Source: a virus
Direction: 5' to 3' (one strand)
Virus record (IMG/VR): IMGVR_UViG_3300046457_000175
Span: 1-64,000 of that record
Length of the DNA: 64,000 bases
Shown: in pieces, positions 6,071-49,326 of the stretch
How the letters are laid out: every line of letters starts with the position of its first letter
Numbering within the stretch: position 1 is the stretch's first letter
Position numbers and translations under genes: made by a program
Notes under the pieces: model-generated
What the model saw: the letters and a program-made list of their open reading frames with translations, nothing else
The model's database searches: none
What the model was told of the DNA's origin: nothing

Positions 6071-6577
6071 ATGGCTGACGTTCTACTCGGGCTTGGCTCG
6101 CAAGACCCCAATGCGACTGACGAGACCGGTCTGATCCTCTTCTACGTGCCAGCGAAGGGCATCGACACCCCAAACTTCGAGTCAATTCAGCGCGACGCGC
6201 AATACACCTGGACCTCGGCCGATCGCCTCTCGCGCGATCCTGCGATGCAGTTCACCGGCCCGGGCGAAGATAACGTGGTCATCGATGGCCGCATGTTCCC
6301 CTACCACTTCGGTGGCCTCTCCACGCTGGAGCGACTGCGTGCGGCCGGCCGCGCCGGCAAGCCGATGCTCCTGGTGCGCTTCTATCCGCTGACCAATCCG
6401 GACGGGTACGGCTCCGAGGTCATCGGCAACTACGCGATCAAGCGGGTCCGCACCGTGGAGTCGAAGATCGGCAGGATCGGTATCGCTCACAAAGTCGAGT
6501 TCACCGTCGAGCTTCAGCGCTATGGCGATGATCTCTCCTCGACAACCGATCTGCTCCAGGAAGTGGTGAACAGCTAA
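6071..6577 (+). CDS. Tail terminator/completion protein (P2 gpU-like)
   Basis: 168 residues matching the P2 gpU family, with the strong signature GRMFPYHFGGLSTLERLRAAG followed by KPMLLVR. gpU caps the tail tube end that joins the head. The stop codon overlaps the start of the next gene (TAATG), so the two are translationally coupled. Order tape measure-U-X-D is as in P2. Confidence 0.9.
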   Translation: MADVLLGLGSQDPNATDETGLILFYVPAKGIDTPNFESIQRDAQYTWTSADRLSRDPAMQFTGPGEDNVVIDGRMFPYHFGGLSTLERLRAAGRAGKPMLLVRFYPLTNPDGYGSEVIGNYAIKRVRTVESKIGRIGIAHKVEFTVELQRYGDDLSSTTDLLQEVVNS

Positions 6578-12381: not shown

Positions 12382-12397
12382 CTTGCACGAATGCAAA
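12382..12397 (+). promoter_or_regulatory. Dispersed motif copy
   Basis: CTTGC-ACGAAT-GCAAA, directly before the AAGGAAG ribosome site of the next gene. Gene-sense orientation. Confidence 0.75.
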
Positions 12398-26421: not shown

Positions 26422-26741
26422 TGCTTTTTCCCAAAGACGCTGTCGACGGTCGGCGCCCGCTCATCGCTGGGGGCTATCCAGACCCTCGTCTGTCGGTTGC
26501 CGTGATTGTTGCCCTTGACGTGAAAGTCCTGCTCGTGTCGGGCTCGGTTCAGTTTTGAAACCATGACACGGAAGCCGGCGAGCATCGCTTGATCGTGATC
26601 TCGAAATGTCTCCGGCTTCCCGTCCTTGCCATTCACCCACTCTGGCGAAGATCCCGGGATGCCGTAGGTCGCGTGGTAGAGACCATCGATTTCCTTGTGG
26701 GGTACAACTGCCGAATAGTAGGAGTTGGCAATCTTGGTCAT
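26418..26741 (-). CDS. Hypothetical protein
   Basis: 107 residues, coupled to ThyX by ATGA overlap. Not recognised. Confidence 0.66.
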   Translation of the reverse strand: MTKIANSYYSAVVPHKEIDGLYHATYGIPGSSPEWVNGKDGKPETFRDHDQAMLAGFRVMVSKLNRARHEQDFHVKGNNHGNRQTRVWIAPSDERAPTVDSVFGKKQ

Positions 26742-27715
26742 GCAGCTTTCCTTAAGACGTCTAGCTCGATGAATTTGCGGTTCTGGCTCCAGCCGCGGAA
26801 ATTTCCGTGAAGGTGCGACTGCTGCCAGTATCCGACGCGGAACTCGCCATACGGCCCGATCTGACCCGGCACTCGGACGTCTGGCGTGGCCTGATGCTCA
26901 GCCGGTGAGGCGTGAAGCGGCCGGGCACCGACGAGGTCGTTGAACAGCGCGAGATCCTTGTGGACCTGCGGCTGCTTGCCTTCGTGGGTCAGGTAGGAGG
27001 TGCGAGCGCAACGGGCGACGGAGATTTTCTTCTGCGTATCCAGGTCGAGCCACTCCTGCTCGAACTCCGAGACGAACGGCAAATGCCATTGGCCCGGCTG
27101 CAACAGCTGTGGCTTGCTGTCGGCAAACGCTGCCTTGATCGCGATAGCCAGCGCCTGGATCTCCGGCTGCGCATCCTTGTGGTCACGCAGCTCGAAGAAG
27201 TTGTCCCAATCGGTCGCTGTGATCAGGACGTTGATGTGGGCGTAGGGCTCGAGAATGCGGTTGACGACCTGTTTGTGATAGCCGGCCTGGTCGTAGGCTC
27301 GTGCGAATGCGATGGCGTGGTCACGAGCCTCGCACCACATCTGCTGCGGCGACAGCAGCGATCCCATGAGGACGTTGTCGTTCGCGAAGGGATTCTTGAT
27401 GTAGTCGGTCAGCTCGATGTCGGCCTGCATGCCCTTCTGGTTTTTGCCCCAGTGGATCGGCATGGCCGTGTCGCGGATGATGTCGTCGATCAGACGCTGA
27501 ACCGGGATCGCGCGGGAACTGGAAGCGTTCCGAGACAAATTGCGGTCGTACATCAGGCCATCGTTGATCTCGATGATCATGTCGGGCGTCGAGCTGAGGA
27601 CGCGATGGGTCAGCTCTTCAGCGTGGATGAAGCGCGGGTAACGCGCGAGCACCGTCTTCAGTTCGATTTGCTGAGGTGAAACCGAATGCAAAACTTTAGT
27701 TGCAGAGACCGTCAT
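26738..27715 (-). CDS. thyX: FAD-dependent thymidylate synthase
   Basis: 325 residues. LSRNASSSRAIPVQRLI is the ThyX nucleotide/flavin-binding motif and HINVLITATDWDNFFELR plus QPEIQALA are further hallmarks. Makes dTMP from dUMP. Longer than the common 220-250 residue ThyX enzymes because of an extended C-terminus. Works downstream of the phage dCMP deaminase. Confidence 0.9.
   Translation of the reverse strand: MTVSATKVLHSVSPQQIELKTVLARYPRFIHAEELTHRVLSSTPDMIIEINDGLMYDRNLSRNASSSRAIPVQRLIDDIIRDTAMPIHWGKNQKGMQADIELTDYIKNPFANDNVLMGSLLSPQQMWCEARDHAIAFARAYDQAGYHKQVVNRILEPYAHINVLITATDWDNFFELRDHKDAQPEIQALAIAIKAAFADSKPQLLQPGQWHLPFVSEFEQEWLDLDTQKKISVARCARTSYLTHEGKQPQVHKDLALFNDLVGARPLHASPAEHQATPDVRVPGQIGPYGEFRVGYWQQSHLHGNFRGWSQNRKFIELDVLRKAA

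Positions 27716-32275: not shown

Positions 32276-32279
<4 letters not shown>
32151..32279 (-). CDS. 42-residue zinc-ribbon-like protein (DUF1660-like)
   Basis: [20 protein letters not shown] then [16 protein letters not shown]-terminal LC...DHK and a late CPRC pattern resemble DUF1660 phage miniproteins. ATGA overlap with the nrdJ stop supports translation. Confidence 0.65.
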
Positions 32280-35707
<3,428 letters not shown>

Positions 35708-46024: not shown

Positions 46025-46681
46025 TCAAAACGGAATGTCGTCATCCATGTCGTTGTTGCGACCGCCGCCGTTGTTGGCGTTGCCGCCGCGGCTGCTGCCA
46101 CGGTCATTGCCACCACGGTCATCGCGATCGTCACGGCCACGGTTGCCACCACGGCTTGCGCCACGATCATCGCCGCCGCGGTCGTCGTCGCGAGAGTTTC
46201 CACGGCTCGACGAGCTACGGCTTCCGCGGTCATCGTTGCCACCGCGATCGTCACGGTCGCGGCTGTTGCCGCTGCTGCGGGAGCTGCCACGGCTATCGCT
46301 GCCACGGTCGTTCTTGTTGTCGTTGTCGAACGACAGCTTCATCAGCGCATCGATCGGAGCGAAGGCGGGGATGACGATCTCGGTCGAGTAGCGATCGACG
46401 CCGTCCTTGTCTTCCCACTTGCGGGTCTGGATCTTGCCTTCCAGACGGACCAAGTCGCCCTTATGGACGTAGTCCTCGACGAACTTGATCGTGTTCTCGT
46501 TCCAGACGACGATATTGTGCCACTCGGTCTTCTCCTGCTTCTCGCCGGAGCGCTTGTCCTTCCAGGTCTCACTGGTAGCGACGCTGAAGTTCGCGACCTT
46601 GGAACCGTTGGACAGGGATTTCACTTCGGGGTCTTTACCGAGCCGCCCGATCAGCTCAACTTTGTTCAGACTTGATGCCAT
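46025..46681 (-). CDS. ssb: Single-stranded DNA-binding protein
   Basis: 218 residues. OB fold at 1-110: NKVELIGRLGKDPEVKSLSNG, VATSETWKD and EWHNIVVW. The linker (about 120-208) is an Arg/Asp/Gly/Ser polyampholyte; the tail DDDIPF is the canonical partner-binding C-terminus. Has AGAAGGAG ribosome site and a composite motif upstream; its unit ends in a strong terminator, consistent with high expression. Confidence 0.93.
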   Translation of the reverse strand: MASSLNKVELIGRLGKDPEVKSLSNGSKVANFSVATSETWKDKRSGEKQEKTEWHNIVVWNENTIKFVEDYVHKGDLVRLEGKIQTRKWEDKDGVDRYSTEIVIPAFAPIDALMKLSFDNDNKNDRGSDSRGSSRSSGNSRDRDDRGGNDDRGSRSSSSRGNSRDDDRGGDDRGASRGGNRGRDDRDDRGGNDRGSSRGGNANNGGGRNNDMDDDIPF

Positions 46682-46698
46682 TGGTCTCTCCTTCTGTG

Positions 46699-46731
46699 TT
46701 TGCATTAGCATTTCGTTTGCATTCAAGCAAG
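46699..46731 (-). promoter_or_regulatory. Dispersed motif: full palindrome plus half site
   Basis: Full palindrome TTTGC-ATTCAA-GCAAG at 46716-46731 and half site TTTGCATTAGCA at 46699-46710, nearer the SSB gene. The layout matches that at 55921-55948. Confidence 0.82.
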
Positions 46732-46738
46732 CGAAAAG

Positions 46739-48292
46739 TTACGTGAAAGGCGCAACAAATAGTCCGGTCCGCTCGTCGAAGGACAGGATCGAGATGCCGG
46801 TGTTGCCGGCGAGCCGCTTGAGGCGGACCTTTGCGATGTTGATCTCGCGATCGTTGGGGCTGTCTTCATTGCCGCCGTGAACCAGAATGCCGAGGTCGGC
46901 CTTGTTCGCCCAGTGCGCGGAGTCCGAGATGTTGTAGAGCCCCGGCTTCTGCCCAGCATCCAGCTTCGTCGGGTGAGCCACCACGATGACGCAGACACCA
47001 AACTGCTTCGCGAACCGCTTGAGCATCTTGATCGCCTTTCCAACGTACTCCGTCAGCGACATGTTGGCCGGACGGTTGTGCTCCAGCTCGTTCCAGGGGT
47101 CGACGACCATGCACTTCACGCCATCGCGGAACACCGCGACCATTGCCGTGTCGATCAGGAACTTGACGTCGATCTCAAAGTCTTTGCCTTCATCGTAGTC
47201 GATGAACTGGAAGTATCTCTGGACGAACGCCTCGGCTTTCTTCTTCTCCTCGAACGTCCATGTCTTGCGCTCCTTTTCCAGGAAGGCGGTCATCAGCTCG
47301 TGTGCGAGGAACGGCTTGACGTCCTTCTCACCCGAGAAGATGGCGATCGGCCACTTGTGCTTCTTCGCCAGCAGCACTGCGACCTGGTTGATCAGCGTCG
47401 ACTTGCCGACGTTGGGCGTGCCGGTGCAGACCACGAACTGGCCGGGGTAGAACTTCATCAGGCCGTCCAGCTCCGCGGACAGACCGATCTCGCACATAGC
47501 CGGCACTTCCAGCTCCGGATAGTCGGAGAGGCGGAACAGACCCTTGACCGGCCATGGCTTGGCCGCCTGGATCATATCCGTCACCGCCTTGGCGCCGAGA
47601 TATTGCCTGACCTCGTTGAGATCCTTGGGGGCTCTGAGTTTGTTCCTGTTCTTCTTGTCCGGAACGACCTCGTCCGTGGGGTACTCGACCCAGAAACACT
47701 TGGCCGCACCGAGACGTCTGACCAACTCCTTGGCCAGGCGCTGGCCTGGCTCGTCAGCGTCGGTGCAGATGATGTGGTGCTTGACCTCCATGATCTGGTG
47801 CATCAGCCGGCCCATGAACGCGAACTTGTCGTCGTCCTCGGGGTCGATATCGCTGTCGTCGTCGGGCACATCGATCAGCCGACCCTTGGCGTCGCGGGCT
47901 GGCGGCGCACCATCGGGGACCGAGACGATGGTCTCGTAGCTGCACTCCTTGCCGGCGAGCACGTCGAACTCGCCCTCGACCCAGATCAGCGACTCATCGC
48001 CCTGGCGAAGTGCGTCCATCAGTGCCGGGTGGAATAGCACTTCCGCATTGTACAGCGTCTTGACCGCGTCCTTGCGCTGCATGAAGCGGCGCTGTCCGTC
48101 CTGCGACCACCGGTATTTGGTGTTCACCTCGACGCCATGCTCGAAGTAGGGGAAGCAGAGGATGTTGCCACGCTCGTCAGCTTCGATTGACCCATCGTGC
48201 GAGCGACGCCCGCTGTAGAGCCCCATAGCCGCCGCCGTTTCGACGCTCAGGCCGCGGTCCTCGATCCCCCGTGCGTGCTTCTCGTTTAGCAT
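46739..48292 (-). CDS. Replicative primase-helicase (TOPRIM + DnaB-like)
   Basis: 517 residues from ATG 48292 (MLNEKHARGIEDRG). TOPRIM region: WVEGEFDVLAG, IICTDADEPGQRLAKEL. Helicase region: GTPNVGKSTLINQ Walker A at about 300, MVVDPWNELEH Walker B, AHPTKLD motif. Resembles T7 gp4-type proteins. Its usual N-terminal zinc domain is encoded just upstream in another frame (48177-48497); the join would need a +1 shift, most simply at G5 (48266-48270). No ribosome site as strong as its neighbours precedes the start. Confidence 0.87.
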   Translation of the reverse strand: MLNEKHARGIEDRGLSVETAAAMGLYSGRRSHDGSIEADERGNILCFPYFEHGVEVNTKYRWSQDGQRRFMQRKDAVKTLYNAEVLFHPALMDALRQGDESLIWVEGEFDVLAGKECSYETIVSVPDGAPPARDAKGRLIDVPDDDSDIDPEDDDKFAFMGRLMHQIMEVKHHIICTDADEPGQRLAKELVRRLGAAKCFWVEYPTDEVVPDKKNRNKLRAPKDLNEVRQYLGAKAVTDMIQAAKPWPVKGLFRLSDYPELEVPAMCEIGLSAELDGLMKFYPGQFVVCTGTPNVGKSTLINQVAVLLAKKHKWPIAIFSGEKDVKPFLAHELMTAFLEKERKTWTFEEKKKAEAFVQRYFQFIDYDEGKDFEIDVKFLIDTAMVAVFRDGVKCMVVDPWNELEHNRPANMSLTEYVGKAIKMLKRFAKQFGVCVIVVAHPTKLDAGQKPGLYNISDSAHWANKADLGILVHGGNEDSPNDREINIAKVRLKRLAGNTGISILSFDERTGLFVAPFT

Positions 48293-48497
48293 TCTCTGAT
48301 CCAACCCATCCACAGTTCTTGCAATTCCAGACGACCCCGCTGACATCGATCTTCACCGATAGGCAGCGGATTTTCTTGTGAGCGCCCTTCCGCTTGTGCG
48401 AACACTGCGGACAGGTCGAATACTGATTTCCGAATTTGATGGACCGCAGCTTGATCCCCTCTTCGGACAGGACCTTCTCGATATCCACACTGGCCAT
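48177..48497 (-). CDS. Primase zinc-ribbon domain, out of frame with primase-helicase
   Basis: First about 75 of 106 residues are the zinc domain of a T7-type primase: CPQCSHKRKGAHKKIRCLSV and VWNCKNCGWVG. Residues after about 78 are not primase-like and read over the primase gene in the wrong frame. If one G of the G5 run at 48266-48270 is skipped the text reads ...REARTGIEDRGLSVETA and joins exactly to the primase-helicase. It is either a separate small product, a programmed +1 shift, or an assembly error. Confidence 0.72.
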   Translation of the reverse strand: MASVDIEKVLSEEGIKLRSIKFGNQYSTCPQCSHKRKGAHKKIRCLSVKIDVSGVVWNCKNCGWVGSENAKREARTGDRGPRPERRNGGGYGALQRASLARWVNRS

Positions 48498-48498
48498 G

Positions 48499-49326
48499 TC
48501 AGATCGCCACCTTCATCTTTCCCGGCATGCCTCGGGGCTTGATCGGCGCCTCCTCGGTCTCCCACCTGGCGTTGTTGATCCAGACGCTGGCTGCCGCGAT
48601 GAACTTGACGTTCCTCGGATCAGCCTTCACGTCGGCGTTCATGCGCTCGGCGTAGAAGCCAAGACCTTTCAGGATGTCCTCGAACTCGACCTCGTCGTCG
48701 CGCTCCAGCTTCTCCAGCTTGGTGTAGGCTGCCTTGCGGCTGTCACCCGGCTTCTTCGGATAGAGGGCCCAGAACTGCTTCCGGTAATCATCCGGCCAAG
48801 CCTTCGTCTTGCGGGGCTTGCTGGTTCTAGCTTTCGGTTCAGGTGATGGTTTTAAGTGATGGTTTAAGGTGTCATCCTGGTTGACACCCCTATGTCGCTT
48901 CGGTTGACGCCCGGTGTCGTCCAGGGTCTCACCAGCGTCGTCCTGGTTGCCACCCCTGTCATCCTGGTTGACACCCCCCGTGTCATCCTCGTTGACACCC
49001 TCTTCCTCGGCCGGGACCGGGCCGTCGTAGAGGTTGAGGACGTCCATGTGGATCGTGTACTCGGATGACCGGGTGCTGCCGTCAGGACGGACGCGAGCCT
49101 CGGCGGTGAGGATGCCGATCTCTTCCATCAGCTTGAGGTTCTTGTTCACGCAAGCCCTGCTCAAGCCGGTGATCCGGGCAATGGTGTTCTGGCGCGGATA
49201 GGCGCTGTCCTCGTCGCCGGCAAAATTGGCCAGGATCGTTAGGATGTGCCGCATGGTGGGGGTGACCCGCTTCGGACTGACGTCGACGAAGGACTCGATC
49301 ACCCAGTTGATCGCTCTGATGCTCAT
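48499..49326 (-). CDS. Replication initiator-like protein (winged helix) carrying heptapeptide repeats
   Basis: 275 residues. N-terminal winged helix (MRHILTILANFAGDEDSAYPRQNTI, ITGLSRACVNKNLKLMEEIGIL) as in phage O-type initiators. Residues about 110-152 are six repeats of roughly GVNQDDT, encoded by 21-bp DNA repeats. The C-terminal part (FWALYPKKPGDSRKAAYTKLEKL...) resembles DnaT/O-type domains. It is followed by the primase-helicase, as lambda O is by P, so it probably recruits helicase at the internal origin. Confidence 0.78.
   Translation of the reverse strand: MSIRAINWVIESFVDVSPKRVTPTMRHILTILANFAGDEDSAYPRQNTIARITGLSRACVNKNLKLMEEIGILTAEARVRPDGSTRSSEYTIHMDVLNLYDGPVPAEEEGVNEDDTGGVNQDDRGGNQDDAGETLDDTGRQPKRHRGVNQDDTLNHHLKPSPEPKARTSKPRKTKAWPDDYRKQFWALYPKKPGDSRKAAYTKLEKLERDDEVEFEDILKGLGFYAERMNADVKADPRNVKFIAAASVWINNARWETEEAPIKPRGMPGKMKVAI
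48843..48867. repeat. AT-rich direct repeat beside iterons
   Basis: GTGATGGTTTTAA followed by GTGATGGTTTAA, clearly AT-rich against the surrounding GC-rich coding DNA, and directly adjoining the first iteron. Candidate unwinding element. Confidence 0.6.
48868..48999. repeat. Six 21-bp iterons inside initiator gene (candidate origin)
   Basis: Units begin at 48868, 48891, 48913, 48934, 48955 and 48979. Best unit is GGTGTCA-TCCTGGT-TGACACC, with 7-bp inverted arms. Units 3-5 are exactly contiguous; the others are separated by 1-3 bases. All lie within the initiator gene, as lambda ori iterons lie in O. Confidence 0.72.

Follow-up and report, generated by a model that had tools for sequence, protein, structure and literature searches.

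Replication genes at the locus

The DNA analysed here, referred to as the window, comprises positions 1 to 64,000 (64,000 nt) of the IMG/VR virus record IMGVR_UViG_3300046457_000175, which has 119,289 bases and represents a large phage whose host is a soil-type bacterium. A contractile tail had been proposed in a preliminary description of this DNA, and a tail-sheath Pfam match supports that assignment. A replication module is encoded on the minus strand of the window (Table 1). Its primase/helicase is likely the helicase that is loaded at the origin, and the single-stranded DNA-binding protein, recognized by sequence, corresponds in place to an SSB annotated in the Bradyrhizobium phage BDU-MI-1. 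The +1 overlap of the primase zinc-binding and Toprim-helicase ORFs, with the junction peptides VGSENAxR and MLNEKHA, is conserved in BDU-MI-1, G001, G003, L008 and L010, and is a candidate for a programmed frameshift or coupled restart that would yield two primase-helicase forms.

Table 1. Features of the replication module, with positions in the window
Feature	Position	Strand	Basis or remarks
Single-stranded DNA-binding protein	46025..46726	-	by sequence
Toprim + DnaB-type primase/helicase	46739..48346	-	Pfam DnaB_C, Toprim_4; PHROG 239 (E=1.2e-69)
Primase zinc-binding ORF	48177..48497	-	overlaps helicase ORF in +1 frame
O-like replication initiator, 275 aa	48499..49326	-	PHROG 270; Pfam HTH_36
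AACC tract, candidate unwinding element	48823..48867	-	TTAAACCATCAC TTAAAACCATCAC CTGAACCGAAAG CTAGAACC; period ~12 bp
Iteron 6	48868..48888	-	perfect dyad; adjoins AT-rich tract
Iteron 5	48891..48911	-	RQPKRHR, out of frame; 4 mismatches to GGTGTCA-N7-TGACACC
Iteron 4	48913..48933	-	GETLDDT; 3 mismatches
Iteron 3	48934..48954	-	GGNQDDA; 4 mismatches
Iteron 2	48955..48975	-	GVNQDDR; 2 mismatches
Iteron 1	48979..48999	-	GVNEDDT; 1 mismatch

Other genes in the window include two large minus-strand ORFs, one resembling ribonucleotide reductase (32276-35707; BDU-MI-1 annotates a class II enzyme) and one resembling a thymidylate synthase ThyX-like protein (26738-27715). A 16-bp near-palindrome, TTTGCATTCGTGCAAA (also TTTGCATTCAAGCAAA), is repeated across the phage genome, for example at 12382, 37061, 45882, 49379 and 55933, and at 85477 and 86187 of the record. 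With up to 4 mismatches it had 49 strand-wise matches in the record against 1 in a shuffled window, and it probably serves the phage as a promoter or operator.

The initiator matched PHROG 270, "replication initiation protein", over residues 3-263 (E=3.8e-28), a match that covers both of its domains, and its match to Pfam HTH_36 was above the cutoff of that family. It is composed of a winged helix (residues ~21-93), a disordered linker (~98-157) and a helical C-terminal domain (~178-255). The AlphaFold2 model had pLDDT values largely of 80-91 in the winged helix and the C-terminal domain, and most of residues 98-157 scored below 50. Both its sequence and its domain layout thus place the protein in the O-like initiator family (PHROG 270 and relatives). 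A Foldseek search of the PDB with the model returned only generic winged-helix neighbours, none below E=0.001; a search of genome contigs with P0001 gave a single distant match, in a Prevotella MAG, and a search of plasmids found distant relatives only, in five records.

Dyad iterons and an AT-rich tract within the initiator gene

The preliminary description had placed six units of GGTGTCA-N7-TGACACC inside a winged-helix initiator gene, a setting that PHROG 270, HTH_36 and the AlphaFold2 model all bear out. Six 21-bp dyads related to this consensus do lie at 48868-48999. By ascending coordinate their mismatches number 0, 4, 3, 4, 2 and 1, so that one of them is exact and four match the consensus loosely. 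Three are exactly contiguous, as stated before (48913 to 48975). Scanning the whole 119-kb record for the consensus with at most 2 mismatches gave matches only at this array and at 85854-85940.

The iterons encode residues 110-153 of the initiator, within the disordered linker. Several of the units encode the heptapeptide GVNQDDT or a variant of it, as was claimed previously. Read in coding order, beginning at the N-terminal side, successive units are spaced 24, 21, 21, 22 and 23 bp apart, however, which puts the fifth out of frame, so that RQPKRHR is encoded there in place of GVNQDDT. An equivalent out-of-frame unit is also present in L009, L010 and BDU-MI-1. Both the dyads and the AACC words of the gene exceed chance: of 20,000 trials in which codons were re-sampled synonymously according to the phage's own usage, 19 matched the observed number of loose units, 236 that of dyads and 31 that of AACC words.

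The AT-rich direct repeat that had been described next to the iterons was found as GTGATGGTTTTAA/GTGATGGTTTAA at 48843-48867, with a GC content of 0.32, a level reached by 0.3% of the 25-mers in the window. It is part of a longer tract of AACC repeats on the C-terminal side of the iterons. This tract occupies the position of the AT-rich tract in the lambda origin and is therefore a candidate unwinding element. Tracts of this kind are present in this phage and BDU-MI-1 as well as in Pseudomonas, Labrenzia, Arthrobacter and Salmonella ST64B phages; AACC repeats were looked for in lambda and are absent there.

In-gene arrays retain helical spacing but not reading frame

Viral contigs were scanned for three successive TGTC-N9-GACA cores, a pattern in the DNA alone that makes no reference to any protein, and 99 stretches were found. 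(Exact tandem GGTGTCA dyads, used as a query of the viral contigs, gave no matches, this pattern being too strict.) Among the 80 stretches listed of these 99, 60 arrays lie in ORFs that match an initiator profile built here; in the full set the number of arrays inside such ORFs is 72 of 99, of which 42 are non-redundant. This is so although the initiator ORF containing an array covers a median of about 9% of its locus.

Across the 42 non-redundant arrays, 103 of 120 spacings are 21-23 bp (22 bp in 64 cases, 23 bp in 21 and 21 bp in 18), and the units of 36 arrays are spread over different reading frames. Among in-gene arrays it is thus the helical spacing that is retained and not the frame, which argues that the DNA has been selected and not the heptapeptide. 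The proposal that the protein repeat and the DNA origin are the same bases holds for the bases themselves; since the units occupy different frames both here and in these 36 arrays, the peptide is better regarded as a by-product. The 42 stretches of 70 nt that follow the last iteron contain 83 AACC words, as compared to 23.6 in shuffles and 14 upstream, and successive words are most often 11-13 bp apart. The mean GC content of this downstream region is 0.43, versus 0.60 for the contigs.

Arrays outside recognized initiator ORFs also occur in phage contigs (L072, L106, L115, L112 and L120); among arrays of this kind, those of the BDU-MI-1-like clade were the ones followed further. In L053, seven near-identical TGTCCGGAAACCGGACA units at 6316-6460 lie in an ORF missed by the initiator profile and are followed by TTAGACTC repeats. 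This ORF perhaps represents another initiator family of the same layout.

A second, intergenic array in collinear phages

The second array of the record, which the preliminary description had missed, has four units of the same dyad type (85854-85940; 2, 3, 2 and 0 mismatches) and is accompanied by its own AACC tract, TTAAACCACCAC TATAACCACCAC TTGAACCACCAA, array and tract together extending over 85854-85976. It is located between leftward and rightward ORFs, and the spacers within it are found in either orientation, which would be expected if the dyad alone matters. A promoter-like site, TTGACA...TAGGAC, is found on the AACC side of this array (record ~86146-86190), and similar sites are found in G001 and G004.

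Four related, collinear phages, namely BDU-MI-1 and three from IMG/VR, also have both arrays; their initiators share 36-63% identity with that of this phage over the matched part. BDU-MI-1 (121 kb), the closest annotated phage with an initiator 57% identical, carries its in-gene array at ~17.1 kb and its second array at 100132-100243, in an annotated gap between genes, with AACC repeats on the left. The arrays are at ~96.6 and 63.2 kb in G003 (127.6 kb) and at ~19.0 and 57.2 kb in G001 (114.5 kb). The remaining IMG/VR relative is split over two contigs of one assembly, with the initiator on G005 and the intergenic array on G004; the gene order of these contigs maps to complementary parts of the other genomes, and they are therefore halves of one phage. 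The distance between the arrays is 37 kb in this phage, ~38 kb in BDU-MI-1, 33.4 kb in G003 and 38.2 kb in G001, and in these four measurable genomes the AACC tracts point outward from the segment between the arrays. Four of the five intergenic arrays have an AACC tract next to them, with the side and order seen at the in-gene origin; in the G001 copy the tract is largely lost.

A relative that keeps the gene and loses the repeats had been named as evidence against an in-gene origin, and the split phage goes half of the way: it retains a single iteron in the gene (L008 on G005), the equivalent of iteron 6, and its partner contig carries five iterons between genes (L075).

The arms of the two arrays also vary together. 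The arms are of the TGTCGG/CCGACA type in either array of G001, and the second array of G001 scored 3.04 on the in-gene profile of that phage compared with -1.68 at best on those of other phages, the G003 and BDU-MI-1 profiles scoring still lower. The second array of BDU-MI-1 likewise scored best on its own in-gene profile (1.44 versus at most 0.68 on the others). Where the arms of a lineage have changed, the change is thus seen in both arrays, with only two lineages having clearly different arms.

By comparison, seven longer records with TGTC-type in-gene arrays (G014-G020), used as controls, each had one array and no second one. When the second array was sought near homologues of the flanking gene P0002, it was present in L122, which is near-identical to this phage, and was not found nearby in L123-L129; P0002 is therefore not a reliable marker of the site. 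GTTAAC-type arrays were sought in five of the records with P0002 homologues (G007-G011) and in G013, an initiator relative of 40% identity, and none was found; G012 had the in-gene array only.

Comparison with lambda, SPP1 and other replicons

The lambda layout proposed earlier, with dyad iterons followed by an AT-rich tract in an O-like gene, is upheld by homology, by the AlphaFold model and by many relatives. Lambda has four iterons within its initiator gene O with an A-rich tract on their C-terminal side, and in this phage the dyads likewise lie within the initiator gene, about two helical turns apart, with the AT-rich tract on the same side. The lambda iterons are 20, 24 and 23 bp apart and are therefore not all in one frame either. 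Two iterons and the AT-rich tract form the minimal unwinding unit of lambda (PMC7466680). Unlike lambda, this phage has AACC repeats, its own primase-helicase and a second array, and the iteron sequences of the two phages are unrelated.

Given the second, intergenic array, phage SPP1 is the better comparison. Of the two SPP1 origins, oriL is located inside gene 38 and oriR between genes. Each is made up of repeats and an AT-rich element, G38P binds both, and when bound at oriR it has been proposed to stall replication forks and so bring about the theta-to-sigma switch (PMC6316719, PMC3485210). The likeness is one of site layout, namely an in-gene and intergenic pair in which direct repeats accompany an AT-rich element. 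SPP1 differs in its host group, being a Bacillus phage, and in that its origins are 12-13 kb apart in a 44-kb genome, whereas the sites described here are 33-38 kb apart in genomes of 114-128 kb.

The PHROG 270 phages of Pseudomonas, Arthrobacter, Salmonella (ST64B) and Acinetobacter share the domain layout of the initiator, have in-gene repeats of 18-24 bp (except for the Arthrobacter phage, which has the AACC-type repeat only) and, where present, carry AACC repeats of ~11-13 bp after the iterons. They differ from this phage in that each has its own iteron sequence, and the seven longer records with TGTC-type arrays show a single array. Among plasmids, P1 has two iteron clusters (oriR and incA) for one initiator; the initiator family is a different one, and the second cluster described here, unlike incA, retains an AT-rich melting tract.

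Cumulative GC skew, which had been suggested as a means of locating the origin, was weak and confounded by transcription. In all four genomes that could be read through, the cumulative skew reached its maximum at or near the second array, where the slope change was among the lowest 1-6% of positions (10-kb windows). The slope change at the in-gene array had the opposite sign and was strong in only two of the four genomes. By the usual convention this pattern would put the origin at the gene and the terminus at the second site and would fit an SPP1-like fork barrier; it is suggestive at most, because transcription diverges near the second site and can itself explain a skew peak.

Proposed function of the two sites

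Taken together, these comparisons make it likely that this phage has a lambda-type origin within its initiator gene and a second initiator-bound, origin-like site, as in the oriL/oriR arrangement of SPP1. By analogy, the in-gene site would work like the lambda origin and the pair of sites like that of SPP1. The winged-helix initiator, probably as dimers, would bind each ~21-bp dyad, and the occupied in-gene array would wrap or bend the DNA so that the adjacent AACC/AT-rich tract melts and the phage's own primase-helicase, encoded just downstream, can be loaded there. The unstructured linker encoded by the iterons may tolerate any peptide that the DNA dictates. The intergenic copy, presumably bound by the same initiator, may serve as a second or late origin or as a site of the SPP1 oriR type at which bound initiator stalls forks and triggers concatemer replication.

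It is less likely that the in-gene array is the sole origin and the intergenic array a control locus, acting through titration or handcuffing as does P1 incA, or a repressing operator. Extra iteron clusters serve copy control in iteron replicons, the second array is near a divergence of transcription, and a TTGACA-type promoter-like site is found on its AACC side in this phage (G000) and in G001, and is readable in G004, all of which would be consistent with such a role. A control locus, however, needs no melting element, and four of the five second arrays retain the AACC tract on the side and in the order seen at the in-gene site, which makes this explanation unlikely.

That an initiator gene was once duplicated and left the second array behind as a non-functional relic appears very improbable. 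One frame is open through the second array and its AACC tract in this phage (GVNQDDR...LNHHYNHHLNHQ), and the first spacings of the array (24, 21 and 21 bp) are those of the in-gene array, as a duplication would predict. The second arrays nevertheless hold matching places in collinear genomes despite the divergence of their initiators, their dyads are intact and their arms updated, and most of them, those of the other phages, have reading frames interrupted by stops.

Finally, the notion that the heptapeptide repeat was selected as a flexible acidic linker, with the DNA dyads following from codon usage, is scarcely credible and already largely refuted: the in-frame units GVNEDDT, GVNQDDR and GVNQDDT do encode disordered linker, but the fifth unit is out of frame in this phage and its relatives, most in-gene arrays mix frames, dyads also occur in non-coding DNA, and synonymous re-sampling seldom reproduces them.

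Returning to the paired origin-like sites, we tentatively suggest that the BDU-MI-1 group of large alphaproteobacterial phages may possess two initiator-bound sites in a fixed pairing, separated by 33-38 kb and with melting tracts facing away from each other. A division of labour between them could then have the in-gene site act first, after which the intergenic site, as late origin or fork barrier, would bring about the switch to concatemer replication; in lineages of the G004/G005 type, with one in-gene unit, the intergenic site might be the main origin.

A search of the literature for this origin pair in BDU-MI-1-like phages found no report. These phages would apparently represent a second lineage, after SPP1 and with distant hosts, that has an in-gene and intergenic origin pair. 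More generally, in a widespread initiator family the linker appears to be shaped by DNA repeats and not by the peptide that they encode, and the AACC repeat of ~12 bp that follows the iterons is a candidate for a shared melting motif. The role of a second phage origin, whether as late origin, fork barrier or copy control, could be tested with BDU-MI-1 on Bradyrhizobium diazoefficiens USDA110.
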